This document shows, one piece after another, positions 9,485 through 46,694 of a DNA stretch of 55,620 bases (the stretch's first letter is position 1; each line of letters opens with the position of its first letter). The position numbers were made by a program, and so were the translations under genes. Below the pieces are notes generated by a model. The model had not been told where the DNA came from and did no database searches. It was given only the letters and a program-made list of their open reading frames with translations. This stretch comes from Henriciella sp. (lineage in GTDB: Bacteria; Pseudomonadota; Alphaproteobacteria; Caulobacterales; Hyphomonadaceae): NCBI GenBank assembly GCA_027019605.1, contig JALUWJ010000140.1:1-55620 (forward strand), in the 5' to 3' direction.

Positions 9485-11149
<1,665 letters not shown>

Positions 11150-24180: not shown

Positions 24181-24196
24181 ATGACTTCGCATGCAA
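24181..24196. promoter_or_regulatory. Operator O1 for the LacI-family regulator (weaker copy)
   Basis: ATGACTTCGCATGCAA matches the regulon consensus TTGACTTCGAATGCAA at 14 of 16 positions. It lies 84 bp before the TonB-receptor ATG and 35 bp from O2, centre to centre. Confidence 0.6.
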
Positions 24197-24215
24197 AATT
24201 GCAGGGGTGGCGTGC

Positions 24216-24231
24216 TTGCATTCGAAGTCAA
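24216..24231. promoter_or_regulatory. Operator O2 for the LacI-family regulator
   Basis: TTGCATTCGAAGTCAA, an exact reverse complement of the site at 38457. It is followed 4 bp later by a half-site TGCATTCG (24236-24243), then the receptor gene at 24280. Confidence 0.75.
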
Positions 24232-24279
24232 AAAATGCATTCGTGTCACTGTACGGTCACATTCATTGGGAGGAAAACC

Positions 24280-26727
24280 ATGTCGAACCGCTCTGCTGTC
24301 AACCGAATTCTGCTAAGTACCACCGCCGCAATCGCCCTATCGGCAACGGCTGCAACCGCAATCGCCCAAGACGATTCTGAAATCGCAGAGAGCCAGAAAA
24401 AGCTCGGTGTGATCACGGTGACGGCGGAAAAGCGTTCGGAAAGCACTCAAGATGTTGGTCAGTCAATCCAGGCTTTTGACGAAGCGGGCCTGGAGCGAGC
24501 TGGGGTGGATGATGTCTCTCGTCTTGACCAGATCGTCTCGGGTGTAAATTTCGCTTTCGTTGGGAACGACGCCAAATTCAACGTGCGCGGAGCTAACTCA
24601 ACAAACACATTTGGGGATGTATCTTCGATCGTTGGGACTTTCGTTGATGGCGTTTATCAGCCACGCGCATCGATGCAGTCACGTGGGTTTTTTGACGTTC
24701 AGCGACTGGAATTTTTGAAAGGCCCGCAAGGGACTCTATATGGTCGCAATACTTTCGCAGGCGCGCTGAATCTCTACACAAATGCGCCAGATCTATCAGG
24801 CTTCGGAGCAGGCATTGATGCGAGCTATGAGCGCTTCAATACTCGCCGTGTCGAAGGATACGCCAATATTCCTTTGACAGATACATTCGGCGTGCGCGTT
24901 GCCGCATTCACCGAGACTGGGGACGGCTATATCGAAAACAGCGCGGGGCACAATTTGGGCGCCCCAGACGATGTTGGCGTACGGATCAGCGCTTTGTGGG
25001 AGCCGAGCTCGGATCTCGATGTTCTGGCTCGATACTCAAATGTCACCGAGCGCGGCGTCGAAGCAGGCCTGTTTGGATACACTTTTGTCTGTCGCAATGT
25101 CACGGCGCAAGGGCTGACGGATCCGCTTGGGACATCCCAGGATTGCGCGAATCCGTTGCAAGGATCGAGCGGCGCGCCAAGCGCGGACCAGCTCGGGCCC
25201 TATGAGGTCGCGCAAGATTTTGCGCCCGAAGGCGATCTCGAGCAGCAGCAATTCTCGTTGGAAGTGAACTATGATTTCGGCCCGGTTACTGTGAAGTCGA
25301 TCTCTGCTTATACGGACTTCAAAAATCTACTTGGGTTTGACGGTGACTTTAGTCCGACGGGTCATACGCGGTTTTGGTTCAACGAAGAAAATGAAAGCTT
25401 CTCGCAAGAATTCTTGTTTGCCTCGGATTATGACAGCCCATTGCAGTGGACCGCAGGCGCTTACTATTCCGAAGATGAGAGTTTCTTCAGTTTTGCCCTG
25501 ATCGACCAGACGGCGGAGATCGCTAATCGTCCAAATGTTATTGGGCCTGGTGGTGCGACTTTCCCGCTGCTTATTGGTACGCCAATCGCTTCGAATGACA
25601 TTATCATTCCAGGTGGCGAATTCGCAGATGTCGGCGTTCGCGAGGTCGAATATTTCGGTATCTTCGGTCAAGCCGAATGGTCGATCTCGGATCAACTTCG
25701 GATTACCGGTGGCTTGCGCTTTAACGATGAAAGCCGGACATTGGTCGGCGCGGGAAGTAATTTTACTGGTGACACGAATGGTGATGGTACAGTCGACCCA
25801 GTCGTCGCGTTCACCCAGCAAGTGCTAAACAATCCGACGCCTGCGGTTGTTCCAACCAATCCCAACACCGTCTTTAATCTATTCCCCAACTCGAGTGATG
25901 CGGTCACCGGCGATGTCAGCTTTGACAATGTCAGCTGGCGCCTCGGTGCGGAGTATGATCTGAATGATGAGATCTTGCTCTATGCCAACGCTGCAACAGG
26001 GTTCTTGTCCGGAGCAATCTCAAACGGTGGAGCCGCGACAGACGAGCAAGAATCGCAAGTCATTGAAGTTGGTTTCAAATCCAACTTGCTTGAGAACACA
26101 CTGCTTCTGAATGGCGCTGTGCATGTGACTGAGTACACAAATTTGCTGCGTCAGGTGCAGGAAATCATCGGTGGGGTCGCTGTGACATCGTCGGACAATG
26201 GTGGTCAGATCGATGCCTGGGGTATCGAACTCGAAGCGACTTACTTCCCAGTTGAAAACCTTCGACTCAGCGGGACCCTTGCTTATCTCGACTCTGAGTT
26301 CGGCGATGGCTTCTTCCAGGGCAACCCATACCAATTGTTTGGGGGGCAAGTTGTGCCTTCCATCGATGTGTCGGGTGAAACCACACCTTGGTCTCCTGAG
26401 CTAACGTTCAATGTCTCTGGTGACTATACGATTGATCTCGGTGAAAACGGCACGCTAACGCCGGGTATTTCATTCTACTATAGCGACGAGTACTTTACCT
26501 CTAACCTATACTCACCAGACCCAAACCAGTTGCAGGATAGTTTCACGAAAACCGACTTGCGTCTGCGTTGGGACTCGTCTTCGGGTGACTATTCAGTCGA
26601 AGCCTTCGTTCAAAATCTTGAGGATGAGGCGGTTCTGGCTCGCGGCAACAACAACTCAAGTGATGTTGTCCAAACTGGATATCTGTACCCACAAAACTAC
26701 GGTGTCAGGCTCAAGGCTCGGTTCTAA
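24280..26727 (+). CDS. TonB-dependent outer-membrane receptor
   Basis: 815 residues from the ATG 6 nt after GGGAGG; an upstream in-frame start would include operator DNA. A signal peptide ends ATAIAQ, followed by a TonB box (GVITVTAEKR) and the plug domain (about 45-165, with RLDQIVSGVNF, FNVRGANSTNTF, RLEFLKGPQGTLYGRNTFAGALNL). A 22-stranded barrel is expected in the rest, ending in the aromatic strand YGVRLKARF. Such receptors import siderophores, vitamin B12 or, in this order of bacteria, large or scarce carbon substrates. Operators and neighbours point to a carbon source rather than iron. Confidence 0.93.
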   Translation: MSNRSAVNRILLSTTAAIALSATAATAIAQDDSEIAESQKKLGVITVTAEKRSESTQDVGQSIQAFDEAGLERAGVDDVSRLDQIVSGVNFAFVGNDAKFNVRGANSTNTFGDVSSIVGTFVDGVYQPRASMQSRGFFDVQRLEFLKGPQGTLYGRNTFAGALNLYTNAPDLSGFGAGIDASYERFNTRRVEGYANIPLTDTFGVRVAAFTETGDGYIENSAGHNLGAPDDVGVRISALWEPSSDLDVLARYSNVTERGVEAGLFGYTFVCRNVTAQGLTDPLGTSQDCANPLQGSSGAPSADQLGPYEVAQDFAPEGDLEQQQFSLEVNYDFGPVTVKSISAYTDFKNLLGFDGDFSPTGHTRFWFNEENESFSQEFLFASDYDSPLQWTAGAYYSEDESFFSFALIDQTAEIANRPNVIGPGGATFPLLIGTPIASNDIIIPGGEFADVGVREVEYFGIFGQAEWSISDQLRITGGLRFNDESRTLVGAGSNFTGDTNGDGTVDPVVAFTQQVLNNPTPAVVPTNPNTVFNLFPNSSDAVTGDVSFDNVSWRLGAEYDLNDEILLYANAATGFLSGAISNGGAATDEQESQVIEVGFKSNLLENTLLLNGAVHVTEYTNLLRQVQEIIGGVAVTSSDNGGQIDAWGIELEATYFPVENLRLSGTLAYLDSEFGDGFFQGNPYQLFGGQVVPSIDVSGETTPWSPELTFNVSGDYTIDLGENGTLTPGISFYYSDEYFTSNLYSPDPNQLQDSFTKTDLRLRWDSSSGDYSVEAFVQNLEDEAVLARGNNNSSDVVQTGYLYPQNYGVRLKARF

Positions 26728-26843: not shown

Positions 26844-28475
26844 ATGGAATCCTTTGGGTTATTAAACTGGGCAATTGTGGCGGTATATCTCGTCGGTAAT
26901 TTATTGCTCGGATATTGGATGAGCCGGAAGGTTAAGACGGCCGCGGATTATCAGATCGGGGATCGGTCCGCGCCCTGGTGGGCAATCGGAATTTCCGTCG
27001 TCGCGACTTATGTCAGCGCCTTGTCATTTCTTGGTGGGCCGGCCTGGGCCTATGGCGATGGGATGGCGGCATTAGCCATCCACATCAATTACCCTCTGGT
27101 GATTTTTGTCGTCGTCGTGCTGTTCTTGCCTTTCTTCTACAATAGCGGCGTCGCTTCCATTTATGAATATCTCGAGCAGCGGTTTGGCTTGGCATCGCGA
27201 ACCGTGATGTCCGCCATTTTCTTACTAACCCAAACGATCACGACCGCATCGATCCTAACGGCCACGGCCGTGGTGATTACGTTCGCGACCGGCATAGATG
27301 TCGGGGTCGCCATCATTGGCATGACCTTGGTGGTTTTAATCTACACTTTACTCGGTGGCATGAACGCTGTGATCTGGACTGATGTTCTGCAGGGCGTGAT
27401 TCTATTTCTTGGGGCGGGGATCGTTTTGTGGGGTTTGCTGGGCGCAGTCAGCCCACTGTCGGACGCCCTTTCAACCCTGGCAAATGATGGCAAGCTTAAT
27501 CCGATCAATACGGATTTGGATTTCTCGGTTGCGCCAACGGTGTGGGCTGGTGTCCTCGCCATGACACTCTTTCATATCACTGTGTACGGCACCAATCAGA
27601 TGATGGTGCAGCGGGCGCTTGCAGCAAAGACGCTGGGTGATGCCAAGAAATCCTATTTGATGATGGGGTTTGCGGCATTCTTCATCTACTTCTTGTTCTT
27701 TTTCATCGGTGCTCTGCTGTACGTGCATTTCAAGGGCGAGCCGTTCGAGCAGCCGAATGAGATTATTCTCGTCTTTGCGCAATCACTCGCCATCCCCGGC
27801 TTGATGGGTATTCTGGCAGCCGCTGTCTTGTCCGCCTCTATGTCGAGCCTGTCTTCGGCGCTCAATTCGTTGGCGACCATTTCGGTTACGGATTTTTATC
27901 AGCGCTTTTTCAAGGCTGAAGCGAGCCCGGAACACTTTCTCGGCGCGTCGCGCCTGTTCACGCTAGTTTGGGCGGCTATGGCTGTTCCGATAGCCTTTGC
28001 TTTTATCAATAGCGGCGGATCGATCCTTGAAACCCTCAGCCGGGTCGCTTCCTATTTTGTTGGAGCTAAGCTGGCTATGTTCGGGCTCGGCTTCTTGTCC
28101 AAACATACCAGCGAACGCGGCTTGCTGGTCGGTGTGGTTGCCGGTTTCATTGGATTGCTGATCATAGTCGGCGGCGTCCCAGCTATTGGCCTTGAGCCGG
28201 CGAACGTTGCCTGGCCGTGGTATGTCGTGATTGGCGGCGTGATCAATATTTCCGTCTCTTGGACCGCCAGCGTTTTGCTCGATGGGTTCCAGTCAGATTG
28301 GCATGAGCAAACGGTTGTCGGGCAGTTGCGACGGTTTAAAGCAGAGGGGCTCGCTGAAAAAGAATCAGGCTGGTATGTGGTGCCGGGGCGCGTGGATAAT
28401 GTTGCTTGGTATTTGCTAGGATTCTTTATCCTGATCATTGCTTTCTTGGCTTGGTTTGGAACCTTGGCCGGCTGA
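26844..28475 (+). CDS. SSS-family sodium:solute symporter
   Basis: 543 residues with about 13 membrane helices. Family signatures are YWMSRKVKTAADYQIGDRS at the N-terminus, the early helix WWAIGISVVATYVSALSFLGGPAWAYGDG, YTLLGGMNAVIWTDVLQGVIL, and GILAAAVLSASMSSLSSALNSLATISVTDFY, which carries the Na+-site serines. SSS members import sugars, carboxylates, vitamins or polyols with Na+. It lies between the receptor and the dehydrogenase and probably performs the inner-membrane step of the same pathway. No operator precedes it, so it depends on read-through or a private promoter. Confidence 0.93.
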   Translation: MESFGLLNWAIVAVYLVGNLLLGYWMSRKVKTAADYQIGDRSAPWWAIGISVVATYVSALSFLGGPAWAYGDGMAALAIHINYPLVIFVVVVLFLPFFYNSGVASIYEYLEQRFGLASRTVMSAIFLLTQTITTASILTATAVVITFATGIDVGVAIIGMTLVVLIYTLLGGMNAVIWTDVLQGVILFLGAGIVLWGLLGAVSPLSDALSTLANDGKLNPINTDLDFSVAPTVWAGVLAMTLFHITVYGTNQMMVQRALAAKTLGDAKKSYLMMGFAAFFIYFLFFFIGALLYVHFKGEPFEQPNEIILVFAQSLAIPGLMGILAAAVLSASMSSLSSALNSLATISVTDFYQRFFKAEASPEHFLGASRLFTLVWAAMAVPIAFAFINSGGSILETLSRVASYFVGAKLAMFGLGFLSKHTSERGLLVGVVAGFIGLLIIVGGVPAIGLEPANVAWPWYVVIGGVINISVSWTASVLLDGFQSDWHEQTVVGQLRRFKAEGLAEKESGWYVVPGRVDNVAWYLLGFFILIIAFLAWFGTLAG

Positions 28476-28498: not shown

Positions 28499-28514
28499 TT
28501 GCATTCGAATGCAA
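28499..28514. promoter_or_regulatory. Operator O3 for the LacI-family regulator
   Basis: TTGCATTCGAATGCAA, a perfect palindrome (extended to TTTGCATTCGAATGCAAA). It lies 36 bp before the dehydrogenase-regulator operon and is identical to the site at 37348. Confidence 0.85.
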
Positions 28515-28550: not shown

Positions 28551-29849
28551 ATGGCCCGTTGGCTTAAGGAAGGGATTGATCCCGATATCAAACAAAAGGC
28601 GGATGCTCAGGTTCGCAAGACCGTGGAAGACATCCTTGAGGACATTGATTCGCGCGGGGACGCGGCGGTTCGAGATTTGTCGGAAAAGTTCGATAAATGG
28701 AGCCCGCCGAGTTATCGCCTCACCCGCGAAGAGATCGATGCGTGTTATAAAGAGCTTGATGAACAGGCCATCAGCGACATTCGCTTTGCACAAGAGCAAG
28801 TGCGAAACTTTGCCCAGATACAGAGGGATGCGCTTCAAGATGTTGAAGTTGAAACGCTCCCGGGCGTGACGCTTGGGCACAAAAATGTGCCAGTGAATTC
28901 TGTTGGCTGTTATATTCCAGGTGGCAAGTATCCACTGATCGCCTCAGCGCATATGAGCGTTGTAACAGCCAAGGTGGCCGGCGTCCCGCGTATCATTGCA
29001 ACAGCTCCGCCCTTTGAAGGTCGGCCTCATCCTGCGATCGTCGTTGCCATGGACATGGCGGGTGCGGACGAGATCTACACCTTGGGCGGCGTACAGGGCA
29101 TTGGTGCGATGGCCGTTGGCACAGAGACTATTGCGCCAGTCGATATGATTGTCGGTCCAGGCAACGCCTATGTCGCGGAGGCCAAGCGCCAATTGTTTGG
29201 ACGTGTTGGAATCGACCTTTTTGCTGGACCGACAGAAACTCTGATCATTGCGGATGAAAGCGTCGATGAGGACTTCTGCGCAGCTGACTTGTTAGGACAA
29301 GCCGAGCATGGGCCAACGTCTCCAGCTGTGCTGCTGACGAACTCCGAGGGCCTCGCAAAACGGACCATGGAGGCCGTTGAACGCCAGCTTGAATGGTTGC
29401 CAACCGCTGATGTCGCTGGCGAAGCCTGGCGGGAGTACGGCCAGGTCATCGTCTGTGATAGCTATGAAGAAATGGTCGAAGTCGCGGACGAAATAGCGTC
29501 TGAACATGTTCAGGTCATGACCAAAGATCCCAATTATTTCCTGGATAATATGACAAATTATGGTGCGCTCTTCCTGGGGCAGGAAACCAATGTTTCTTAT
29601 GGAGACAAGGTTATCGGAACGAACCACACGCTGCCAACCATGAAAGCCGCGCGCTATACAGGTGGGCTTTGGGTTGGTAAGTTCATCAAGACCTGCACAT
29701 TCCAGCGTGTCACGAGAGAAGCCTCGGTAATGGTTGGCGAATATTGTTCTCGATTGTGCGCTCTCGAAGGCTTTGCTGGTCACAAGGAACAAGCAGACAT
29801 CCGTGTGAGACGTTATGGCCAACAACCCGTCCAAAAAGAACCCGCCTGA
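28551..29849 (+). CDS. Histidinol-dehydrogenase-family enzyme, HpsN-like
   Basis: 432 residues of the HisD fold. Zinc and catalytic elements are LLGQAEHGP (about 248-256, Gln and His ligands), the EHVQVM pair (about 317-322), and the C-terminal His in [15 protein letters not shown]. Sequence style ([49 protein letters not shown]) fits the catabolic branch that includes sulfopropanediol 3-dehydrogenase HpsN rather than biosynthetic HisD, and no his gene adjoins. It probably oxidises an alcohol to a carboxylate in two NAD-dependent steps. No sulfonate genes are present, so the substrate is open. Confidence 0.85.
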
Positions 29850-30885
29850 GGAAAATGGCAAAGTCATTCCTCTGATAAAAGGCCGTCGCGCAACGTCTTA
29901 TGATGTGGCGCGATTGGCCGGTGTATCGCAGTCGGCGGTCTCACGCTGTTTCAAGCCAGGCTCGAGCATTTCCGGAAAAATGCGCGAGCGGGTGATGAAG
30001 GCGGCAAAAGAGCTGGAGTATCAACCAAATGCGATTGCGCGTGGACTGATCACGCAACGGTCCAATCTTGTTGCGGTGTTGGTCTCAGGACGGTTGAACC
30101 TCTATTATCCCGAAGCTTTGTTCAAAATTACCGAAGAGCTCTCGGCGGCTGGACTTCGAGCGCTCCTGTTTACGGTTGAAAGCGAAGAGGATGCAGAGAC
30201 AGTAATCGAGCAGGCTTGGCAGTTTCAGGTCGACGGCGTGATTTCGGCGTCCCACATGTCTCAGGCACAATACGAACTTTTGGAAAAACGGAAAATACCG
30301 GTGGTCTTCTTCAACCGCTATTTTGCCGATCACCCAAATACGGTGGTCTATTGCGACCCTTCAGAGCAAATCGATTCGCTGGCAAAGCAACTCGCCGAAC
30401 TTGGTCACACGCGGGCGGCCCTAATTTCAGGGCCAAGCGAGAACATGGTCAGTCGCGAACGTACACGAATGACCAAGGCGTCACTGGCCCGCTTTAATAT
30501 AGATCTGGTTGCAGAGGTGCAGGGCGATTTCTCCTATGAGAGTGGTGCGGCAGGACTTCAGTCGATTAAGCAACAAAATGGCAATACACCGAGCGTGATT
30601 GTCTGCATCAACGATATGATGGGTATGGGCTGTATGGATGAAGCGCGGTCCGTGCTTGGACTTAGCGTTCCCAGTGACCTTTCCATTGTTAGCTTCGACG
30701 GGATCGGCATGAGCCAATTCTCGAGCTATGAGCTGACCACGGTGCGCCAGCCAATCGGCCGGATGTCGGAGGCCGCCGTTCGAATGATCACCGAGCGTGT
30801 GGAGCGTCCGGATCAGTCTCACGAAAAACGCGTTTTCGAGGGCGCAGTTATTCCTGGCGGGTCTATTGCTCGTGCGCCCTCATAG
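29815..30885 (+). CDS. LacI-family transcriptional regulator of the catabolic regulon
   Basis: 356 residues. A basic leader precedes the LacI HTH (about 26-72: [53 protein letters not shown]), including the hinge helix. A periplasmic-binding-protein-like effector domain (about 80-350) follows, with [10 protein letters not shown] and [12 protein letters not shown]. It overlaps the dehydrogenase gene by 35 bp, so the two are coupled. Near-identical 16-bp palindromes at its own operon and at the other regulon promoters make it the obvious repressor. The inducer is presumably the pathway substrate or an intermediate. Confidence 0.92.
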
Positions 30886-30922: not shown

Positions 30923-32077
30923 ATGAAAACCAGCCAGGACCGCATTCTCACGACCCATGTCGGCAGTTTACCGCGATCAAAACAAGTCACGGATTTGGTG
31001 TTTGGACATGAGGCCGGCGAAAGCCTTGATCAATCTGAGTTTGAAGCAGTGATCTCGAATGCGGTGTCAGAGACTGTGAAGCGTCAGCGGGAGTCCTCTG
31101 TCGACATTGTTAGCGACGGTGAGATGAGCAAAATCTCCTATGCCACCTATATCAAGGATCGCATCACAGGCTTTGACGGCGATAGTCCGAGGCGTGCGCC
31201 CGCAGATCTGGAAGCGTTTCCTGGGTTTCTCGAGCGGCAGGCAAAAGGCGGTGGAACGCCGACTTATCGCCGCCCCAAATGCGTAGGCGAGATTAAAGTG
31301 AAGAGCATGGCGCCTCTGGAAGCGGACCTGCGCCATTTCGCTGAAGCGCTCGATGGCGCAGGGCATAGCGACAGCTTCATGAATGCGGCCAGTCCCGGCG
31401 TGATTGCGCTGTTCCAGCCGAATGAGTTTTATGGCACGCAAGATGAATATTTGGAGGCCTTGGCCGAAGCCATGCGGCCGGAATATGAGGCGATTGTTGG
31501 GGCCGGGCATATCCTTCAACTCGATACGCCCGACCTTGGACTCGGCCGTCACATGATGTTCAAGGACAAACCGCTGGAAGACTATCATCGCTTGGCCAGT
31601 CAGCATGTTGAGGTGCTCAATCATGCGTTGCGAAATGTGCCGGGTGATCGGGTTCGTATGCATATTTGTTGGGGCAATTATGAAGGCCCACACCATTGCG
31701 ATGCACCTATGGATGAGGTGTTGCCGGTGGCGCTGAAGGCTAAACCAAAAGGCTTGTTGTTTGAAAACGCCAATCCTCGCCACGGTCATGAGTGGACGGT
31801 ATTTGCGGACGCCGAGAAACGCGGTGAGTTGAAGGATAAAATCCTCATCCCGGGCGTTATCGACTCGACAACCAACTTTATCGAGCATCCTGAGTTGGTC
31901 GCGCAACGGATCGAACGCTTTACCGATATCGTAGGCAAGGAAAGAGTGATCGCTGGGACCGATTGCGGTTTCTCGACTTTTGCAGGTTTTGGAGCTGTCG
32001 ACGAGGATATCGTTTATGCCAAGCTTGGAGCGTTGGCAGAGGGTGCTGAGCTAGCCTCGAAAAGGCTATGGGCATGA
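30923..32077 (+). CDS. MetE C-terminal-domain-like protein (cobalamin-independent methionine synthase II family)
   Basis: 384 residues. Begins ILTTHVGSLPRSKQVTDLV, typical of MetE-like barrels. Zinc-ligand positions are kept: RMHICWGNYEGPHH (His and Cys about 246-248), LFENANPRHGHE (Glu about 280), and AGTDCGFSTF (Cys about 346). MetE moves a methyl from folate to homocysteine; relatives of this single-domain type include epoxyalkane:coenzyme M transferase. Co-regulation with catabolic genes suggests thiol- or methyl-transfer chemistry in degradation, not methionine synthesis. The ATGA overlap with the aldolase gene shows coupling. Confidence 0.85.
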   Translation: MKTSQDRILTTHVGSLPRSKQVTDLVFGHEAGESLDQSEFEAVISNAVSETVKRQRESSVDIVSDGEMSKISYATYIKDRITGFDGDSPRRAPADLEAFPGFLERQAKGGGTPTYRRPKCVGEIKVKSMAPLEADLRHFAEALDGAGHSDSFMNAASPGVIALFQPNEFYGTQDEYLEALAEAMRPEYEAIVGAGHILQLDTPDLGLGRHMMFKDKPLEDYHRLASQHVEVLNHALRNVPGDRVRMHICWGNYEGPHHCDAPMDEVLPVALKAKPKGLLFENANPRHGHEWTVFADAEKRGELKDKILIPGVIDSTTNFIEHPELVAQRIERFTDIVGKERVIAGTDCGFSTFAGFGAVDEDIVYAKLGALAEGAELASKRLWA

Positions 32078-32826
32078 GCCTCAAACAACGCCTTCGCGAT
32101 CAGGAGCCATTGATCGGTACGTTTTTGAAGACACCGTCCGCGATGGTTTGCGAAGTTTTAGGGCGGAGCGATTTGGATCTGGTTTGCCTGGATGCCGAAC
32201 ATTCCCCGTTCGATCGGCGCGACATCAATGATTGCGTGTTAGCGCTGCAGCATGTCGGGAAACCAAGTCTGGTGCGAGTGCCGGCCAACCGCCCAGAGTA
32301 TATCCTCAATGCGCTTGATTGCGGTGCAACCGGCGTTCTCGTGCCACATGTGATCACCGGTGCGGATGCGGAAGCTCTGGCAGGGAATGCGCATTTCGGA
32401 GCAGGACGCGGCTATGCTGGCTCAACCCGAGCGGCGGGCTATGGCGCACGCACGATGGCTGAGCACATAGCGCGCAGCAGCGAGGCAACAGTTGTCATCG
32501 CGCAAATCGAAGATGCCGAAGCGTTGGAGCATTTGGATGATATCTTAGCGGTAAAGGCGATTGATGCATTCTTCATAGGCCGTGCGGATTTGTCTGTATC
32601 TCTGGGAGCAGACGGACCGAACGATCCGCGGGTCGTTGCGGCGGTTGAGCAGATTTGCGCAAAGGGAAAAGCGGTGGGCGCAACGATCGGGATGTTCACC
32701 GCTAATTTGGACGAATTGCCAAAGTGGCGCGCCGCGGGAGCGAGTTTGTTTCTGCTTGGCTCAGACCATGGTTTTATGCTGAGCGGCGCCGCGGAGCTGA
32801 CAAGCAAGGTGCGCGTGCACTTTTAG
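32074..32826 (+). CDS. HpcH/HpaI-family aldolase
   Basis: 250 residues from the ATG overlapping the MetE-like stop (ATGA); an ATG two codons upstream is possible. Class II aldolase landmarks are CLDAEHSPFDRRD (catalytic His about 43), RVPANRPEYI (Arg), VVIAQIEDAEAL (metal Glu), and FFIGRADLSVSLG (metal Asp). The family cleaves 4-hydroxy-2-oxo acids or 2-keto-3-deoxy sugar acids to pyruvate and an aldehyde, a fitting last step of the pathway. Its stop overlaps the stop of the convergent amidohydrolase by 4 bp. Confidence 0.9.
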   Translation: MSLKQRLRDQEPLIGTFLKTPSAMVCEVLGRSDLDLVCLDAEHSPFDRRDINDCVLALQHVGKPSLVRVPANRPEYILNALDCGATGVLVPHVITGADAEALAGNAHFGAGRGYAGSTRAAGYGARTMAEHIARSSEATVVIAQIEDAEALEHLDDILAVKAIDAFFIGRADLSVSLGADGPNDPRVVAAVEQICAKGKAVGATIGMFTANLDELPKWRAAGASLFLLGSDHGFMLSGAAELTSKVRVHF

Positions 32827-33719
32827 ATTCGATAGAACCGTTCAGCGACGGCGCGGAACATGGCGTCGCGCTCCACCGCTGTATAAACGTCACAAATCTT
32901 CAAATACGCACCCATCGTTTCTTCATAGCTCGCATAGAGCTTATCGACGGGAAAGTTCGACCCAAAGGCGATGCGGTCGGGCTCAAAGACTTCGATTGCG
33001 CGATGCACTAAGGGTGCGATGCTCTCGATCGACCAGTGAGGGTCGAACATGCCGAAGCCCGATAGTTTGCAGATCACATTCGGGAGCTCTGCGAGCGCTT
33101 TTAACCCGGTCTTCCATTCAGCCAGACTGCCTTGATCATAGGCGCTGAGTGAGCCTCCATGACAAAGCGCGACATTCAACTTTGGCACTTGAGCGAAAAG
33201 ATCCGCAGCCGACTGCATTAAAGGCGGTGTCAGTTGAAGATCGAAAGACATGTCTTTGTCAGCGAGAATTTGAAGACCGCGTTTGAAATTTGGATCCTTG
33301 AGTAGCGCGGACGTACCGGTCTTACGGTCTTCTTCGGCGCTGCGTCCGATGATTTGCCGAACCCCTTTAACGCCAGAATGCGCAAGATGCTGGTCCAGAT
33401 CTATTTCAACGGAGTCACGCGTGAGGTCGCAAAATGGCACGATTGCTGTGGGTAGACCGAACCTGTCTGCTTGGGCTTGCAACCAAGTTGTTTCTTTGAG
33501 GCTGTCATCGACCTCTACGCCGATCTGAATATGGACGGACTTTTTGACTGGGATGGTGCCGAAATCGGTGCGCAGATCATCAACGTGATAGTTCTTTTGA
33601 ATGGGAGCAGGATCGCCAAAGAAGCGGATGACCCCACGCTCGGCGAGCCAAGTGTGGCGGCATGCGTCTAGGTCCCAAAGATGGTGATGCGCATCCACGA
33701 TATAGGGCAGATCATCCAC
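32823..33719 (-). CDS. Amidohydrolase-2-family metal hydrolase
   Basis: 298 residues from a GTG that overlaps the end of the upstream SnoaL gene by 8 bp and starts just before the first strand. In-frame ATGs upstream would add a non-family leader. Metal motif DAHHHLWD (about 9-16), then VALCHGG, and FGSNFPVDK with the C-terminal Asp-equivalent region. Relatives hydrolyse sugar lactones (fucono-, rhamnono-, galactarolactone) or decarboxylate aromatic or dicarboxylic acids such as 4-sulfomuconolactone. Here a lactone or enol substrate is the simplest guess. It is the last gene of the O5-controlled leftward operon. Confidence 0.85.
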   Translation of the reverse strand: MDDLPYIVDAHHHLWDLDACRHTWLAERGVIRFFGDPAPIQKNYHVDDLRTDFGTIPVKKSVHIQIGVEVDDSLKETTWLQAQADRFGLPTAIVPFCDLTRDSVEIDLDQHLAHSGVKGVRQIIGRSAEEDRKTGTSALLKDPNFKRGLQILADKDMSFDLQLTPPLMQSAADLFAQVPKLNVALCHGGSLSAYDQGSLAEWKTGLKALAELPNVICKLSGFGMFDPHWSIESIAPLVHRAIEVFEPDRIAFGSNFPVDKLYASYEETMGAYLKICDVYTAVERDAMFRAVAERFYRI

Positions 33720-34779
33720 TTTGATACCTCGTGGTGGCAATTTGTCGACGCAATGCGATATCATCCCACACTGTGACTTGCTCGCGAACGCGACCATTCA
33801 TTATGCGAAAGTGTGACACACCTAATATGTAAACGGGGGCGCCCGTTGGGGCACCGTAGCGTCCTGCACCCGAATGCGTGCCAACGGCGCTCCAACGTAA
33901 AGAAACATCTCTGGATTCTCCCAAATAGGGGATCTCGGCGACGTGTTCGATAGACAGTTTGAGGTCAGGTAGTGTGCTCAGCAAGCCATTGCGCCAAACC
34001 ATAATTTGGTCTGGGCCATATAGTGAGACATCACCGGGAAACTGGGCTGCGACTCGGAAGTCATAAACCGCTTGAAGCTTATCTAATCCAGTAGATGAGA
34101 AACACCGACGTAGAGCAGTGGCGGCGAGCGAGATGGCAGTGCTGGCATCGGTTTTGGTTTGGTCACCCTGAGCTGTCGTCGCGCGATTATCAGCGTGAAA
34201 GTCGATCAAGCTGAAACTGTTGATTTTATCCTTCTGGGCCTGGTCCTTGGCGACCCGATCCGCATCGAAACCGAGCTGTTGAACGGCAGCAAGATTGTCG
34301 CGAACAAGCCATTCTTCGATGACGCGATTGCCTTTGCACAAGCATTCCGCAATCGTTTGAATGCGAATTTGCTTGCCTGTTACAGGGCCAAATTCACTGG
34401 CGCCCTCATTTGTCATTTTTGAAGTTATTAGGTGCGAGGAATAAAATGCGTCATCGTCTTCCTTAGACCAGATCACATTATCCGCATCGAGACGGCGATC
34501 TGGAAAAGCCTTAAGCGTCGCCCACGTATTGTCGACCACGGTTTGTGCGCCACTGATATCGCCCGCCATCGTGTGTATGGCGCAGTCTTCAGCATACCAG
34601 TCGAGGCATTTCTCAACCTCGCGATCGTGCCAAATCCGCTCGGTGATGCGAATGATGTAGTGCGGGAAGTCAACAAACTCATCCGCGAAGCCGGGCAGGT
34701 CCATACGCGGCTCGGGCCCTGGATTCATCATTTCGTGAATATTCGTCGTTGCGACATGAGTGATGGGTTTGTGTGTCAT
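33712..34779 (-). CDS. Double SnoaL-like (ester cyclase) protein A
   Basis: 355 residues from the ATG 6 nt after AGGAAG. Two tandem SnoaL/NTF2-like domains: about 35-170 (RITERIWHDREVEKCLDWYAEDCAIHTMAGDISG) and about 220-350 (DKLQAVYDFRVAAQFPGDVSLYGPDQIMVWRNGLLSTLPDLKLSIEHV). SnoaL-type cones bind cyclic or enolic intermediates and catalyse aldol closures, isomerisations or hydrations. It is less similar to the other two family members here, lacking their WYGPCGIG motif. It is coupled to the amidohydrolase downstream and follows the SDR gene by 7 bp. Confidence 0.8.
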   Translation of the reverse strand: MTHKPITHVATTNIHEMMNPGPEPRMDLPGFADEFVDFPHYIIRITERIWHDREVEKCLDWYAEDCAIHTMAGDISGAQTVVDNTWATLKAFPDRRLDADNVIWSKEDDDAFYSSHLITSKMTNEGASEFGPVTGKQIRIQTIAECLCKGNRVIEEWLVRDNLAAVQQLGFDADRVAKDQAQKDKINSFSLIDFHADNRATTAQGDQTKTDASTAISLAATALRRCFSSTGLDKLQAVYDFRVAAQFPGDVSLYGPDQIMVWRNGLLSTLPDLKLSIEHVAEIPYLGESRDVSLRWSAVGTHSGAGRYGAPTGAPVYILGVSHFRIMNGRVREQVTVWDDIALRRQIATTRYQSG

Positions 34780-34786
34780 TTGCTTC

Positions 34787-35512
34787 CTATTGCGCCGTCC
34801 AACCGCCATCGACAACGAGTGAGTGGCCTGTAATCATCCTGCCTGCCGGACCACATAGATAGAGCACGGCCTCAGCGATATCTTCCGTGCTTGCAACTGT
34901 GCCAAGAGGGATCATGCGTTTGACGAAAGCCGAAAACTCGGGATCGTCCAACATCGGTTTGGTCATTGGTGTTTCGACAAAAGTTGGAGCGACTGAGTTG
35001 ACGCGGATTCCGCGCGGCGCAAGCTCCACCGCCATAGCTTTTGTGAGACCTTCGATGGCGTGTTTGGTCATGCAATAGGCTGTGCGATTTGGGGACCCAA
35101 CATGTCCCATTTGTGAGCTGATATGAACGATCCGCCCGTCTTGAGGCATCACATCAAGAACAGCGCGCGAGACGCGAAAAGTGGTGCGAACGTTCAAGTC
35201 GAGCATGACGTCCAGATCTTCATCGCTGACGTCGTTCATTGGCTTGGGTCGATTGGTGCCGACATTGTTCACCAGAATATCAATCCGGCTTTGTCCCGCG
35301 ATGAAGTCGAGTAATTCATCCGACGCTGCATTGCCCCGCCACGGGATACAGCGATCACCGCAAGCCGCTATGAGCTCTTCCATGGCGTCAGAGGCACGTG
35401 CGACGGGAATGATCTCTGCGCCTGCAGCGTGCAGCGCTCCACAGATCGCACGCCCGATGCCGCGACTGGCGCCGGTGATTAATGCGCATTTTCCTCTTAG
35501 GTCCATCGTCAT
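34787..35512 (-). CDS. Short-chain dehydrogenase/reductase
   Basis: 241 residues of classical SDR type: cofactor motif TGASRGIG (about 14-21), NNVGTNRP (about 86-93), catalytic ISS...YCMTK (Ser about 132, Tyr/Lys about 145-149), and a C-terminal MITGHSLVVDGGW. It oxidises or reduces a hydroxyl/keto group with NAD(P). Its ATG overlaps the cupin stop by ATGA. As a member of the O5 operon it presumably acts on a pathway intermediate. Confidence 0.92.
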   Translation of the reverse strand: MTMDLRGKCALITGASRGIGRAICGALHAAGAEIIPVARASDAMEELIAACGDRCIPWRGNAASDELLDFIAGQSRIDILVNNVGTNRPKPMNDVSDEDLDVMLDLNVRTTFRVSRAVLDVMPQDGRIVHISSQMGHVGSPNRTAYCMTKHAIEGLTKAMAVELAPRGIRVNSVAPTFVETPMTKPMLDDPEFSAFVKRMIPLGTVASTEDIAEAVLYLCGPAGRMITGHSLVVDGGWTAQ

Positions 35513-36552
35513 GCCCAGCGTAGATCCGGTGCTTGGTTACCTCCGCGAACAGCGACGAGTCGGACTGGCGTGTCACCTTCATTGTGAAACGATCGCTCCG
35601 AGCCTTGCGGGAATGTCACCGTATCGCCTGGCGTAAGCGTCGTACTTTGACCGTCAATCTCAATCGCCAAGGCGCCTACGTGCACGAAATGTACGTCGGC
35701 CGCGCTCAGGTTGTGAGTCGGGACACGAGCGCCGGGCGCAATCTCGATTTCGCTCAACGTAAAGCCATGTGGCCAGTTAATTGGGGCTGGACCGATGAGG
35801 CAGGTTTCCGAGACACCTTCAATCTCATCCATCGCACCTTTGTGCTGGCCTTCTGATGCACGGATGACGCAGCTTGCAAGTTGTTCATCCGAATAGACGT
35901 CGAGCGCGGCGACCTGTTCTCGCGTTGTCACTGGCATGGGCGATTTTCCGGTCGGAACCGTCTCCCCTTTATTGGAGTCAATCAACATGCCATCTTCCAA
36001 CAGGATCAGTCCGAAGTCGCGTGCCATGTCGAACACTTTTGGCGCCCAAAGAACGCGGCCCGGATCGTCCCCTCCGAGTACGGCCCAGAGATAGCCAATA
36101 TCATCGCCAATGTTCGTAAATCCGCGAAAAACTTTGGTCGGGATCGAAATTAAGTCGCCAGGAGCGAGCTCAATCTGCGCATCCTCTCCATGCTCACCAA
36201 GATCGAAGCGCCATCGCCCCGAATGCACGTAAAAAACCTCCACGGTGTCATGGCTGTGCTGTGAATTGGTGCATCGGGGGGGCTGGCGCGCCCCGCCAAT
36301 ATTGAACCCGTGTGGCTCTGCGATATGGACATGCTGATTGGGGTTCTCTGAGACGCCCGGACCGATAATGGTGAAGTTTTCTTTCTTATCAGACCCGGGG
36401 GTTCGGGTATCGATAAAAGCATCAAAACAGGGCTTGAGATCGGCGTAGCGCACGACTCGATCTTCGATCCGCAATCGACTTGTCATAGCGGTTTCAGACA
36501 TGTGATTATCCTTATCAGCGGCAGTCGAAATGCCGGATGCGTTCCTGGTCAT
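35509..36552 (-). CDS. Double-cupin protein, gentisate-dioxygenase-like fold
   Basis: 347 residues with two beta-barrel cupin modules. The first has a metal motif HSHDTVEVFYVHSGRWRF (about 98-115, His-x-His...Glu) and a later PTKVFRGFTNIGDDIG. The second (about 265-345) has PGARVPTHNLSAADVHFVHVGALAIEI and PGDTVTFPQGSERSFHNEG, without a full metal set. The layout recalls bicupin dioxygenases or isomerases, but specificity cannot be read. An internal ATG at 36501 has a better AAGGAT site and would remove 17 residues; the first ATG is in a TAATG overlap with the hydrolase stop. Confidence 0.8.
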   Translation of the reverse strand: MTRNASGISTAADKDNHMSETAMTSRLRIEDRVVRYADLKPCFDAFIDTRTPGSDKKENFTIIGPGVSENPNQHVHIAEPHGFNIGGARQPPRCTNSQHSHDTVEVFYVHSGRWRFDLGEHGEDAQIELAPGDLISIPTKVFRGFTNIGDDIGYLWAVLGGDDPGRVLWAPKVFDMARDFGLILLEDGMLIDSNKGETVPTGKSPMPVTTREQVAALDVYSDEQLASCVIRASEGQHKGAMDEIEGVSETCLIGPAPINWPHGFTLSEIEIAPGARVPTHNLSAADVHFVHVGALAIEIDGQSTTLTPGDTVTFPQGSERSFHNEGDTPVRLVAVRGGNQAPDLRWA

Positions 36553-37313
36553 TATTCGTTTTCCAAAAGTGTGAGCTGGTGGTTTCCAGTCTGAGTCATG
36601 CGCGCGGGTGGGGCATTTAGCAGCGCCAGCAACGCGTCATTGACCTGATCTGGCTGCTCAAGCGTCGATATATGGCCGCAGGTATCGATGATCTTTAGTC
36701 TGGCATGGGGTATACGAGATTGAATCTCAACGTGGCGCTCGACGGGGCAAACCCGATCATCACTACCCGCGATTAATAGGGTGGGACAAGCAATCTGACC
36801 AATCCAATCGCGGTAATCAGATCGAACAGTCAGAGCCATGGTCTGTCGACAGAATACATTTTTGCCGAGTGCCATTCCCATTTGTTCGAGAATTTGTAAG
36901 CGATCTTCCGTGCGATTTTCTGGCGCTAGATATTGAGGTTTTAGCTCGTCTCGGATGACCAAATCCAGATCGCCGGCAGCGACTCGACCAAGCTGTTTTT
37001 TTCGCGCAGGGCCAGCTGCATCTGCACGCGCGGTTGTATTCATCAGGGCAAGATGAGTGACACGATGCGGTGCTTGGCGGCAAATCTCTAAGGCAACGAT
37101 GCCGCCCATAGATAACCCAGCAAGCGCAAAGCGTTTGGGGGCTGCAGCGAGAACTTGCGTAGCGAGGCGCTCGATAGAGCAGGCCTGAGTAAGGTCGCCC
37201 ACGCTGCAATCAATGCCCTGACCGCTGAGAGCATCGACTTGCGGCGTGAACAGGCGGTGGTCACACATAAAGCCTGGCAAGAAGACAATTGATTGATTTC
37301 TCATTGGCGCCAT
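36552..37313 (-). CDS. Alpha/beta-fold hydrolase
   Basis: 253 residues. The nucleophile elbow GLSMGG (about 67-72), acid GSDDRVCP (about 184-191), and histidine CGHISTLEQP (about 211-220) form a complete catalytic triad. Relatives include enol-lactone and ester hydrolases. It is the first gene of the leftward operon, 35 bp from operator O5, followed by cupin, SDR, SnoaL and amidohydrolase genes with overlapping ends. The start could also be three codons later. Confidence 0.88.
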   Translation of the reverse strand: MAPMRNQSIVFLPGFMCDHRLFTPQVDALSGQGIDCSVGDLTQACSIERLATQVLAAAPKRFALAGLSMGGIVALEICRQAPHRVTHLALMNTTARADAAGPARKKQLGRVAAGDLDLVIRDELKPQYLAPENRTEDRLQILEQMGMALGKNVFCRQTMALTVRSDYRDWIGQIACPTLLIAGSDDRVCPVERHVEIQSRIPHARLKIIDTCGHISTLEQPDQVNDALLALLNAPPARMTQTGNHQLTLLENE

Positions 37314-37347
37314 CCCGATAATCAGAATAGAGACAGATAATCATATA

Positions 37348-37363
37348 TTGCATTCGAATGCAA
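37348..37363. promoter_or_regulatory. Operator O5 for the LacI-family regulator
   Basis: TTGCATTCGAATGCAA, perfect palindrome identical to O3, upstream of the five-gene leftward operon. Confidence 0.85.
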
Positions 37364-37402
37364 AACTGAATTCGTGCAATTCAGCTCGAACGCCAAAAAT
37401 CT

Positions 37403-38425
37403 TTACGGTGACGGTAGCCCACGAATTTCAGCGAGGCGTTCGAGGACGTCCAAACCTTGTTGTTTGAGATAGTATGGCAAATCGATCAAAACCCAATTCT
37501 CTGCGAGTTTGTCTCCGGCGCGGCGGTAGACGTCGACCACGCGCATCTCGCTTGATCGAGCTGCCTCCGGAAGACCGAGAAAACCACCCAAGTTCCGGTT
37601 GCTTAGGTTCGCCCAGCCGAAGAATCCACCATACTCGCCTTCCGCGAACCGAGCAACGTGACCATTATAGGTTTTATCACTCAAGTTGATCCGAAATGGA
37701 TGTTGATGCTGAGCTTGATACCGCTCAATCGTATAGCTTGCCCCAATGCCACATGGGCCATACCAGGTCATATCCTCATGCCATGTGCGAGCGAGCAGTT
37801 CCGGAGGACATTTTTCACCTGTGATATGATTGATCGAGTTTAAATCTGCGATCATCTGATTGATCAGCTCCATGGTTTTTCGTGTTTCACCTTCATCTTG
37901 CACCTCGAAGAGGCGCCCGTCATGAGTCGCTGGTCCGGGATAGACAAAAAATGAACCGGTCATCGGCGGCAACGGATAGACCCCAGCCTCATGCATCAGA
38001 CCCAGTAAGTCGAAGAATAACGCACTTTCGACGATCTGATCTCCATCTACCCGCGTGAATTCAGCATAACGTAAGTGCGCTAGGCGTCCGGTCTTGGGAA
38101 TGTTCAACCAATCTTTGTCGAACAGCCCGACAAAATGGCCCATGCTGCAGGTCCACACGGATTGCCCTTCATCGACATCATTGGTTCCGGCGAAGAACAC
38201 GTCCTCCCGCCTTTGAATATGTGTGAGAGACTGCCGCAATGGGTGCCAGAAATCGCCGATGACGGTTTCGAACCCAGACTTCTCATAGAACGGATGCATG
38301 CTGCGCCAGGTATAGTCTGACGAAATCGCGTTTAGGCTAACCTGGTTCAGGTCCTTGTCACTGGCGGAATCAAATGTGGCCATATGCGTTCGGACCACTT
38401 GTTTCGCTGTCTGCAATCTGTTCAT
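37403..38425 (-). CDS. Double SnoaL-like (ester cyclase) protein B
   Basis: 340 residues from the ATG 7 nt after GAGG; longer starts reach into the operator region. Two SnoaL/NTF2 halves, about 10-160 and 190-335. The second carries DMTWYGPCGIGASYTIERYQ and QHPFRINL, shared with the divergent protein C. The C-terminus ends LPYYLKQQGLDVLERL. It is divergent from protein C across operator O6, so the pair is jointly controlled. Enzymatic role unknown; the family favours cyclase, isomerase or hydratase chemistry. Confidence 0.8.
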   Translation of the reverse strand: MNRLQTAKQVVRTHMATFDSASDKDLNQVSLNAISSDYTWRSMHPFYEKSGFETVIGDFWHPLRQSLTHIQRREDVFFAGTNDVDEGQSVWTCSMGHFVGLFDKDWLNIPKTGRLAHLRYAEFTRVDGDQIVESALFFDLLGLMHEAGVYPLPPMTGSFFVYPGPATHDGRLFEVQDEGETRKTMELINQMIADLNSINHITGEKCPPELLARTWHEDMTWYGPCGIGASYTIERYQAQHQHPFRINLSDKTYNGHVARFAEGEYGGFFGWANLSNRNLGGFLGLPEAARSSEMRVVDVYRRAGDKLAENWVLIDLPYYLKQQGLDVLERLAEIRGLPSP

Positions 38426-38456
38426 TACAATCCTCTTTCTCCAAGGTTTAGCCAAA

Positions 38457-38472
38457 TTGACTTCGAATGCAA
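38457..38472. promoter_or_regulatory. Operator O6 for the LacI-family regulator
   Basis: TTGACTTCGAATGCAA, between the divergent double-SnoaL genes, 31 bp from the leftward ATG and 97 bp from the rightward one; the exact inverse of O2. Confidence 0.8.
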
Positions 38473-38569
38473 TCCTGCTAAGCGGTGGTTTTGAGTGCGA
38501 TCATGCTCCGTGCTCGAGCTTGTCCGAAATAGATGTATCCCATCATCCCAACCCGATGAGAGTAATGTG

Positions 38570-39607
38570 ATGAATAAGCAAGATCTGAAAGCTGTGTTCG
38601 CACCGTTTCGAATGGCTACAGCGACGTTTGCATCTGACACCGTTCGGACCGCCTTCCAGGATATTTTTGCACCGGATGTAGAATTCAAAATGTGCCATCC
38701 ATTTGGGACGATGACTGGAGCGGAGGCATTCTACGAGACCTGCTATCAACCATTGTTCACGGCACTGCCGGACCTAGAACGACGGGAAATGATCCTGCTC
38801 GCGGGTCAATCACCTGAAGGGGAAGACTGGGTCGCGACGATGGGGAATTATATGGGCACCTTTCTGGCGCCCTTTTTGGACATTCCGCCGACGGGCCATC
38901 TGGTTCATATGCGCTATCACGAGTTCTTCCGTTTCGAAGAAGGTAAAGTGGTCGAGGTTCAAGCAATTTGGGATCTGCCGGAAGTTATGATGCAGGCTGG
39001 GGCCTGGCCGATGGCGCCGCAGCTTGGCGGGTTTTTGTGTACCCCCGCGCCAATGAGTGGAGATGGCTTATCCGCTTCTGGGGACGGTCATCAAGCCTAT
39101 CATCATGTCACGCAAATGCTTGATGATCTATGCAAGCATCCGGCCGATCCAGATCCACGCGTGATGAACTTGGATAGCTATTGGCATCCGCGATTCAATT
39201 GGTACGGACCTTGTGGTATCGGCACGGCCCGGGGGATATCTGGGTTTCGCAACTGGCATCAAATCCCATTTTTGCGGGCAATGCCCGACCGCAAGCTCGA
39301 TGAAATGGGTGACCTGAAATCGCATTGGATTTCAGAGGGCGATTATACGAGTGAAACTGGTTGGCCAAACATGCGCCTGACCCTCACGGATGATGGCTGG
39401 ATGGGGATCGCGCCGGCGGGCCGTGAAGTCTTGTTACGAAGCCTCGATTTTTGGCGGCTGGAAAACGGTTTGATCCGCGAGAACTGGGTACTGGTCGACT
39501 TGCTGGATTTGTATGCGCAAGTCGGCGTTGATGTCCTTGCGCGTCTGCGTGAATTCAACAAGGCACGCAATATCTCTACTATCCGTCTGCCCCCTGGTTT
39601 GAGTTAA
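38570..39607 (+). CDS. Double SnoaL-like (ester cyclase) protein C
   Basis: 345 residues from the ATG of MNKQDLKAVF; a longer frame begins near the operator and lacks a homologous leader. Two SnoaL/NTF2 halves, with the first containing FAPDVEFKMCHPFGTMTGAEAFYE and the second FNWYGPCGIGTARGISGFRNWHQIPF, the same motif as in protein B. It ends VDLLDLYAQVGVDVLARL, again like B. B and C are clearly paralogues, probably acting on related cyclic intermediates or as subunits. Last gene of the recognised regulon. Confidence 0.8.
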   Translation: MNKQDLKAVFAPFRMATATFASDTVRTAFQDIFAPDVEFKMCHPFGTMTGAEAFYETCYQPLFTALPDLERREMILLAGQSPEGEDWVATMGNYMGTFLAPFLDIPPTGHLVHMRYHEFFRFEEGKVVEVQAIWDLPEVMMQAGAWPMAPQLGGFLCTPAPMSGDGLSASGDGHQAYHHVTQMLDDLCKHPADPDPRVMNLDSYWHPRFNWYGPCGIGTARGISGFRNWHQIPFLRAMPDRKLDEMGDLKSHWISEGDYTSETGWPNMRLTLTDDGWMGIAPAGREVLLRSLDFWRLENGLIRENWVLVDLLDLYAQVGVDVLARLREFNKARNISTIRLPPGLS

Positions 39608-46334: not shown

Positions 46335-46648
46335 GCTTAAAAGTGGAGGCTTCTGTTGCCAGGCGCCTCCGGGCCCCGCCTAAGGCGCTGATGCCTTAGG
46401 AGTTAAAGCGGTTTTCCACGCACTGCGTTACGCAGCGAGCAGTTCACCTTCAGCAAAGTTGTCATTTGCAACTATTGTTGAGTGAGCTTCTAACGCAGCT
46501 CATGCGGGTGAAGGCATCGTCTTTAGACGTCCGTCGATCCTATTTCGCCCCCAAATGACCCGCTGAAGGGAGGGTCTTTGGTGGAGGCGCCGGGTACCGC
46601 CCCCGGGTCCGAACCGCTTATTACACGCGCGTTTATCACCATAGTTCA
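46335..46648 (-). ncRNA. ssrA: Transfer-messenger RNA, permuted two-piece form
   Basis: On the minus strand the acceptor piece comes first, ending GCGCCTCCACCA at 46579. A short spacer follows, then the coding piece beginning GGGGGCGAAATAGG at 46552; the GGGGGCG end pairs with CGCCTCC. The tag reads ANDNFAEGELLAA then stop, from 46469 to 46428. A GGAGGC/GCCTCC hairpin with TTTT ends the gene. It rescues stalled ribosomes and tags nascent chains for ClpXP. Outer ends are estimates. Confidence 0.92.
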
Positions 46649-46694
46649 AAAGAACGACGTCAATATAGGCCGGGTTTGAATAAGATAAAAGGGA

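Follow-up and report, generated by a model that had tools for sequence, protein, structure and literature searches.

Three double SnoaL proteins in a Henriciella gene cluster

The DNA analyzed here, called the window throughout, is a stretch of 55,620 nucleotides from Henriciella sp. (JALUWJ010000140.1), one contig (C140) of a 3.37-Mb genome that is 84% complete. Our subject is three of its proteins, A, B and C, and the genes and operators around them (Table 1). Open reading frames (ORFs) were called mechanically, and the coordinates given for A, B and C are those of their likelier ATG starts. A sequence-only reading of this DNA had described the three as double SnoaL proteins, and Pfam together with AlphaFold2 models of A and C confirms that they are double SnoaL/NTF2 proteins. 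All three pass the Pfam cut-offs for PF07366 (SnoaL; 96.2, 40.4 and 96.0 bits for A, B and C, cut-off 28.4) and PF12680 (SnoaL_2; 55, 31.5 and 63.1 bits, cut-off 27). In A and C, two stretches each exceed the Pfam cut-off independently. B has a single confident Pfam stretch, in its first half, and its second half is visible only in the whole-protein SnoaL_2 score; this second half aligns with the second half of C at 32% identity (Z 30).

The AlphaFold2 models of C (predicted TM score, pTM, 0.92; 59-row alignment) and A (pTM 0.91; 44-row alignment) each contain two alpha+beta domains; models were made for these two proteins, and the fold evidence for B is its alignment with C. In a structure search of the models, SnoaL-type crystal structures came up with Z of 13–17 for either half of C and for the first half of A, and comparison of the A and C models with AclR, SnoaL2, 3kkg and 3ehc gives Z of 13.6–16.9. 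For the second half of A, the matches listed are limonene-epoxide hydrolases, which belong to the same fold class (Z ~13).

Table 1. Genes and operators of the cluster in the window, with genes of related loci (L numbers) discussed in the text. pLDDT, predicted local distance difference test.
Feature	Position	Strand	Remarks
TonB-dependent receptor	24172..26727	+	by sequence reading; relatives beside related clusters
LacI-type operator, 2 mismatches	24216..24231		before TonB-receptor gene
Sodium:solute symporter (SSS)	26844..28475	+	TIGR00813 over cut-off
LacI-type operator, perfect palindrome	28499..28514		before HisD-like gene (so upstream of LacI, MetE-like, HpcH); identical sequence in relatives
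HisD-like alcohol-to-acid dehydrogenase	28551..29849	+	motif GKYPL, neither HpsN's nor HisD's
LacI-family regulator	29815..30885	+	PF00356/PF13377
MetE-like Zn protein, catalytic half only	30923..32077	+	PF01717; HxC and CGF Cys aligned
HpcH/HpaI-type pyruvate aldolase	32068..32826	+	GarL/HpaI models E 5e-37 / 4e-34, below cut-off
Amidohydrolase_2, lactonase-like	32823..33797	-	PF04909 E 1.3e-29; mechanical start overlaps end of A
Protein A, double SnoaL, 355 aa from ATG 34779	33712..34779	-	PF07366 E 1.7e-27, two stretches; AlphaFold2 pLDDT 94
Short-chain dehydrogenase (SDR)	34787..35512	-	PF13561
Two-domain cupin	35509..36552	-	PF07883, two stretches
Alpha/beta hydrolase (ABH)	36552..37313	-	closest to enol-lactonase PcaD models, far below their cut-offs
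LacI-type operator, perfect palindrome	37348..37363		before ABH-cupin-SDR-A-amidohydrolase run
Protein B, double SnoaL, 340 aa	37403..38425	-	PF07366 E 3e-10; 33% identical to C over 330 aa
LacI-type operator, 2 mismatches	38457..38472		between divergent B and C
Protein C, double SnoaL, 345 aa	38570..39607	+	PF07366 E 2e-27, two stretches; AlphaFold2 pLDDT 91
L-serine ammonia-lyase	L029:11144-12595	-	operator immediately upstream
L-serine ammonia-lyase	L051:6814-8223	+	operator immediately upstream
Single-domain SnoaL genes	L033, L034, L085, L086, L104, L109, L133, L134, L210-L214, L216, L218-L221, L226		

A shared operator joins A, B and C

A scan of the intergenic stretches turned up a repeated palindrome of 16 bp with a central CG, TTGCATTCGAATGCAA. 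At up to three mismatches the window holds four sites, including two perfect palindromes, where 0.62 are expected, and one of 100 shuffles reaches four. In the whole of the available genome, a scan at up to two mismatches gave these four sites alone, and none outside the window; a reversed control pattern has no site in that genome at the same threshold. The first site lies inside the mechanical ORF of the TonB receptor, so the true start of that gene is probably near 24280. From their co-occurrence, the LacI-family protein of the cluster would be the one that binds these operators. The distribution of the sites thus supports the earlier proposal that A, B and C belong to one, still putative, regulon.

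The operator was also sought elsewhere. Searching 30 of the 44 other genomes that carry the cluster for the 16-mer at up to one mismatch gave 20 sites in nine genomes. Nineteen are on cluster contigs, and the twentieth, on another contig (G174:C61), directly precedes an alpha/beta hydrolase gene resembling that of the cluster. A relaxed pattern, TTGCATNCGNATGCAA, again at up to one mismatch, was run on 27 other genomes with a match to a B/C profile, 13 of which had been in the strict scan and had shown nothing there. It gave 33 sites, 25 of them within ~11 kb of the cluster, and its control gave 0; one of the eight sites away from the cluster stands in G459 beside a gene reading like a ROK-type protein.

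The gene set recurs in a patchy pattern and may be mobile

Related loci were collected by a scan of genome contigs with C, which returned 328 relatives, and the best 80 of these were retained. Thirty-six had at least 8 kb on either side of C; leaving out four near-identical ones (L117, L121, L126 and L057), 32 loci were counted, with neighboring stretches cut at ±10 kb (L109 and L112 were both kept although their C proteins are nearly identical). A is present at 31 of the 32, a LacI gene at 30, the cupin at 28, the MetE-like gene at 27, B and the HisD-like gene at 26 each, the SDR at 25, the alpha/beta hydrolase at 21, and an RraA- or HpcH-type aldolase at 19. At least three double SnoaL genes occur in 28 of the 32. 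Hyphomonad-like loci have a TonB receptor with an SSS transporter and mostly an HpcH aldolase, and roseobacter loci have a sugar-type ATP-binding cassette (ABC) transporter and mostly RraA; these are swapped but equivalent parts. Extra genes at some loci encode a GMC oxidoreductase, a dehydrogenase for alcohols or aldehydes, a hydrolase of the HAD type or a sulfatase. The counts support the view that other genomes retain A, B and C jointly, as though the three had different jobs.

Three SnoaL proteins are not the upper limit, since many relatives add a single-domain SnoaL gene (Table 1), often directly 5' of the HisD-like gene; the window has none. Nineteen of 20 such proteins (128–229 aa) score highest against the second half of C, the exception being truncated by the end of its stretch.

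Among the best 80 of the 328 relatives, the closest family-named matches to C come from Hyphomonadaceae and Henriciella contigs (72–76%). A B/C-profile match at E ≤ 1e-30 is found in 28 of 385 genomes across the Alphaproteobacteria, the window's own included, so the sequence-only reading was fair in calling double NTF2-like chains uncommon. Within the window's own order, C has a match at E ≤ 0.001 in 25 of 200 genomes; in 18, the window's own genome among them, the match is strong. The cluster is patchy, as many genomes, including at least 15 of the same genus, have no match to C.

Relatives of C are also found on 24 plasmid records, including those of Ruegeria, Octadecabacter, Marinovum, Phaeobacter, Vibrio and the archaeon Halobellus. 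In eight plasmid stretches examined, those of Ruegeria, Octadecabacter, Marinovum and, by profile, Ensifer hold most of the set, and the other four hold parts of it (in the profile annotation, labels of ABC-transporter subunits may be swapped). Halobellus has four double and one single SnoaL genes adjacent to a MetE-like gene; an aldolase gene and an ABC transporter are close by. A relaxase-type protein (PF03432 and DUF3363) is encoded at 20505-22409 (+) in the window, ~2 kb upstream of the cluster's TonB gene, and a phage-type integrase lies beside the related cluster L045. Together with the plasmid copies, these suggest that the cluster is mobile. Among the carriers are an isolate from a coral, species that take their names from a red alga and a dinoflagellate, and an archaeon from a saltern; the AG-series records among the relatives of C are presumably marine single cells. 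SBP56-type genes, which we take to be of the methanethiol oxidase family, stand beside related clusters of Marinovum and Phaeobacter (L130:22530-23927 (-) and L133:16795-18192 (+)), and in Marinovum dimethylsulfoniopropionate (DMSP) genes adjoin the SBP56-type gene.

B and C are old paralogues with conserved acid-base residues

Consistent with the sequence-only reading, which had B and C as divergent paralogues and A as more distant, B and C align end to end with 108 of 330 positions identical (33%; Z 85, 200 shuffles) and have in common WYGPCGIG, an HQxPF-type motif (QHQHPF in one, WHQIPF in the other) and alignable C-termini. No full-length alignment exists between A and B (Z -0.1), and A aligns with C only over its own first half, which pairs with the second half of C (Z 11). 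By these comparisons A is related to B and C at the domain level only. A tree was built by a quick method, with some long branches, from 127 B/C-family proteins of at least 300 aa, leaving out identical rows and three duplicate loci (L050 and L067, duplicates of L029 and L031, are among those omitted, and their B genes are included in the 26 of 32 above). It places B of the window in a clade of 37 rows and C in one of 73, each with a support of 100 by the Shimodaira–Hasegawa-like approximate likelihood-ratio test (SH-aLRT), with 17 rows outside both. Median identity is 52% within the B clade, 68% within the C clade and 31% between them. As the two clades are separate and fully supported, B and C are old paralogues of which both copies have been retained.

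In the joint alignment, 45 positions carry the same residue in at least 90% of rows of both clades, and 17 are fixed (at least 90% per clade) to different residues; 12 of these 17 lie in the second half. Such fixed differences fit with successive or parallel steps. Since the differences cluster there, and the single-domain relatives resemble the second half of C, the second domain may be the working or specificity-setting one.

The Asp at the SnoaL position, which we take to be the acid/base Asp121 of SnoaL, is conserved in the A family (Asp161, 74/74 rows; Asp339, 72/74), the B clade (Asp139, 37/37; Asp315, 36/37) and the C clade (Asp135 and Asp310, 73/73 each). Both Asp residues of B and of C and the first-half Asp of A align with a conserved Asp of 3kkg, IdmH or 8ysb; Asp339 of A is assigned only by its place in the same motif. 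Also retained are histidines of the A family (H116, 74/74; H279 and H302, 72/74), the B clade (H97, H240 and H256, 37/37) and the C clade (H117 and H230, 73/73; H206, 72/73). If some of these chains served as ligand-binding or channelling proteins that shield a reactive intermediate, such conservation would be hard to match: over the six domains the Asp is kept in 365 of 368 row-positions, and the histidines are invariant or nearly so. NTF2-like domains often do only bind, and three to five per cluster are many for catalysis alone, but we regard a purely non-enzymatic role for some of them as quite improbable.

Neighboring genes point to catabolism

The top PDB match of the HisD-like protein is 8v35 (sulfopropanediol dehydrogenase, E 3e-121), and the protein is over the cut-off of the TIGR00069 hisD model. 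Its catalytic residues (Gln, His, Glu-His, Asp and the C-terminal His) align with those of HisD and HpsN. At the discriminating motif, aligned with 8v35 and 8wwe, the window has GKYPL, and the majority consensus of 54 sequences is GKfPm. HpsN has the motif G-R-Y-A/S-H with a substrate-binding His, and HisD has G-S-A-P-L (PMC11382572); neither is found at this position of the window protein. Catabolism of 2,3-dihydroxypropanesulfonate (DHPS), a candidate prompted by the 8v35 match, was rejected, as the sulfonate-binding His126 of HpsN is a Leu. By the chemistry of its family, the protein should turn a CH2OH that neighbors a hydroxyl or amino group into the acid, with a substrate that is probably not DHPS.

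The MetE-like protein (384 aa) has HICWGN and TDCGF aligned with solved relatives and kept in 52 sequences, and its GS and DGE stretches align with them too. No NCBIfam methionine-synthase model reaches its cut-off on this protein. The HxC and the further Cys are presumably the Zn ligands of the MetE site, and a MetE Zn site that is kept makes a thiol-activating methyl (or alkyl) transferase likely. The cupin keeps HxHxxxE in its first domain (58 sequences), and the amidohydrolase matches the fuconolactonase model at E 2.9e-27, far below its cut-off. Further genes of the window include an epimerase-like gene 3' of C (39762-40709 (+)), which occurs in none of the related loci shown and has no operator before it, a Cpn60/GroEL-type chaperonin gene among unrelated genes (9485-11113 (-)) and a tmRNA gene (46337-46671 (-)) with the tag ANDNFAEGELLAA.

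The sequence-only reading had placed the three SnoaL proteins in successive cyclization or hydration steps or in a hetero-oligomer. Steps of one pathway are borne out in outline by the co-retention of A, B and C and by the 17 fixed differences. Cyclization is not, the neighbors being uptake, oxidation, pyruvate-aldolase and LacI-family genes. The nearest solved folds include SnoaL-type cyclases and two-domain epoxide hydrolases of the Lsd19/MonB kind, which are biosynthetic, so the double SnoaL proteins might be cyclases or hydratases of a biosynthetic pathway, or B and C might form a hetero-oligomer. However, among the annotated genes there is no set of synthases, ligases or transferases as in a biosynthetic pathway, whereas uptake systems and a LacI-family gene do occur. 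B is not beside C in 6 of the 32 stretches (though L112 has a B/C protein truncated where its stretch ends, and two further B/C-family proteins occur in L098), so that C may not need B. Both proposals therefore seem very unlikely to us.

Because they lie under one operator in a recurring gene set, A, B and C look like enzymes of an unstudied catabolic pathway for a natural metabolite, perhaps an algal sunscreen. On balance, we think it rather probable that they are three separate enzymes of a single catabolic pathway under LacI control, found again and again in marine bacteria. Several observations weigh against this. Two of the 32 loci lack a LacI match and six lack a HisD-like match; the aldolase is missing from 13 of the 32 stretches, perhaps partly through the ±10-kb cut; and the strict operator is absent from 21 of the 30 cluster genomes searched. 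The gene list is not rigid, as Granulosicoccus L082 has C and, of the other counted genes, only one match to part of an ABC transporter, and the Halobellus stretch is without an annotated HisD or cupin. The 32 loci are not a random sample, having been picked from the best 80 of 328 by similarity to C. SnoaL folds serve for binding only too, and none of these proteins has a known activity.

The best reading of the pathway is catabolism of a sugar-like, probably O-methylated, hydroxymethyl-bearing ring, and not biosynthetic cyclization. The substrate would enter through the TonB/SSS pair or the sugar-type ABC transporter; it would have a CH2OH next to an OH or NH2 group, on which the HisD-like enzyme would act, and probably a methyl group for the MetE-like protein. 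A, B and C would use Asp/His acid-base chemistry to hydrolyze, tautomerize or dehydrate related intermediates. Each chain would be a covalent pseudo-dimer, with the second domain of B and C probably carrying most of the specificity, and B and C may act on one common scaffold, each at its own position or stage. The pathway would end in a pyruvate aldolase, the aldolases being of pyruvate-forming families.

Candidate substrates

If the substrate were an ordinary sugar or sugar acid, the SDR and lactonases would oxidize and open it, the double SnoaL proteins would replace the customary dehydratases of sugar acids, and HpcH/RraA would split a 2-keto-3-deoxy acid. The LacI-family gene, the sugar-type ABC or SSS transporter, the SDR, the fuconolactonase-like amidohydrolase and the GarL/HpaI-like aldolase all agree with such a route. 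So do a sulfatase family (F34) that recurs in L031/L067, L059 and L074, and an enolase-family dehydratase between the ABH and MetE-like genes of L074. Yet known sugar-acid pathways have no need of a MetE-like Zn-thiol protein, a HisD-like enzyme, a cupin or three to five SnoaL proteins, and no sugar kinase or glycosidase is found among the recurrent families scanned (F16, F18-F24, F28 and F36 were outside the scan). We hold an ordinary sugar to be unlikely.

A more specific form of the catabolic pathway would have the regulon degrade mycosporine-like amino acids, which are natural UV sunscreens, or their core 4-deoxygadusol; we put this forward tentatively, as one candidate with a low chance of being right. 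The serine- and glycine-linked genes of some loci would suit a compound whose hydroxymethylated, O-methylated ring, derived from a sugar, releases serine or glycine, and mycosporine-like amino acids have structures of this kind. The double SnoaL paralogues would strip amino acids from two ring positions and tautomerize the core, the MetE-like protein would move the enol-ether methyl onto a thiol, the HisD-like enzyme would take the C5-CH2OH to the carboxylate, and the cupin would cleave the resulting cyclic reductone. The product would be 4-carboxy-4-hydroxy-2-oxoadipate, to be split by the RraA/HpcH-type aldolase into pyruvate and oxaloacetate. On paper, demethylated 4-deoxygadusol with its CH2OH oxidized and its ring oxidatively cleaved gives exactly this compound, a known substrate of RraA-family aldolases.

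Support for this candidate comes from the kinds of carrier named above and from genes linked to serine or glycine at some related loci. In L029 and L051 (Henriciella and a relative) an L-serine ammonia-lyase gene lies ~20 bases 3' of an operator (Table 1), divergent from the alpha/beta hydrolase gene and adjoining a gene of the Pfam 'Glycine transporter' family. Members of that family are also in L051 and L095, the L029 member being the one that was profile-scanned; of the 17 genomes that match PF03458, one (G135) has it at the cluster. A serine ammonia-lyase gene is also found beside the G131 cluster and, in Vibrio europaeus, near a double-NTF2 gene and a LacI gene, with no recognizable palindrome in the scanned stretch in either case. 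A D-serine-dehydratase-type protein is encoded beside the G506 cluster, sarcosine oxidase genes beside the Vibrio pelagius cluster and a DAO-type oxidase at a locus of a Granulosicoccaceae member. The majority of loci lack all of these genes, and no GcvT-type gene is near the cluster among the matches listed. Of 26 serine ammonia-lyase matches in 45 cluster genomes, two are within 10 kb of the cluster (G131 and G135; rough chance expectation ~0.3), so the enzyme is an add-on and not a core gene.

Literature searches, with preprints and most subscription journals outside their reach, listed no paper describing the cluster under its protein and gene names and no bacterial genes for mycosporine degradation. 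What emerges is a catabolic locus, present in 28 of the 385 alphaproteobacterial genomes and with no substrate described in the literature searched, in which three to five SnoaL-type proteins work alongside a HisD-like dehydrogenase that fits neither known motif class and a MetE-like protein with a place other than in methionine synthesis. Its clear operator and cultured hosts make it testable, and knowledge of the substrate would make it very interesting. If that substrate were a mycosporine, the locus would supply bacterial genes for degrading marine sunscreens.

Comparison with known systems

The system is built from known folds. The domains of A, B and C have the fold of the SnoaL/SnoaL2/AclR/IdmH family (PF07366, PF12680; 2gey, 8r2b, 3kkg and 6hnn, Z 13-17 for the models of A and C) and share with it the conserved Asp near the last strand. 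Unlike those proteins, they have two domains per chain, at 10–25% identity, and stand in a catabolic and not a polyketide setting. Two NTF2 domains in one chain are also found in Lsd19-type proteins, and the polyether epoxide hydrolases Lsd19 and MonBI/MonBII are the chains listed by Foldseek as aligning over both halves of A and C (3rga, 4rzm, 9kw6 and 9kw8). These, however, belong to polyether biosynthesis and show 10–14% identity, and with a whole-chain TM score of ~0.3 and a root-mean-square deviation of 16–18 Å the packing of the domains may differ.

The HisD-like protein keeps the catalytic residues of HpsN and HisD and, relative to the motifs cited above, differs from HpsN by its Leu at the His126 position and from HisD by Lys-Tyr in place of Ser-Ala. 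The MetE-like protein has the HxC, the second Zn-site Cys and the GS and DGE stretches of MetE, the cobalamin-independent methionine synthase, but consists of the catalytic half only.

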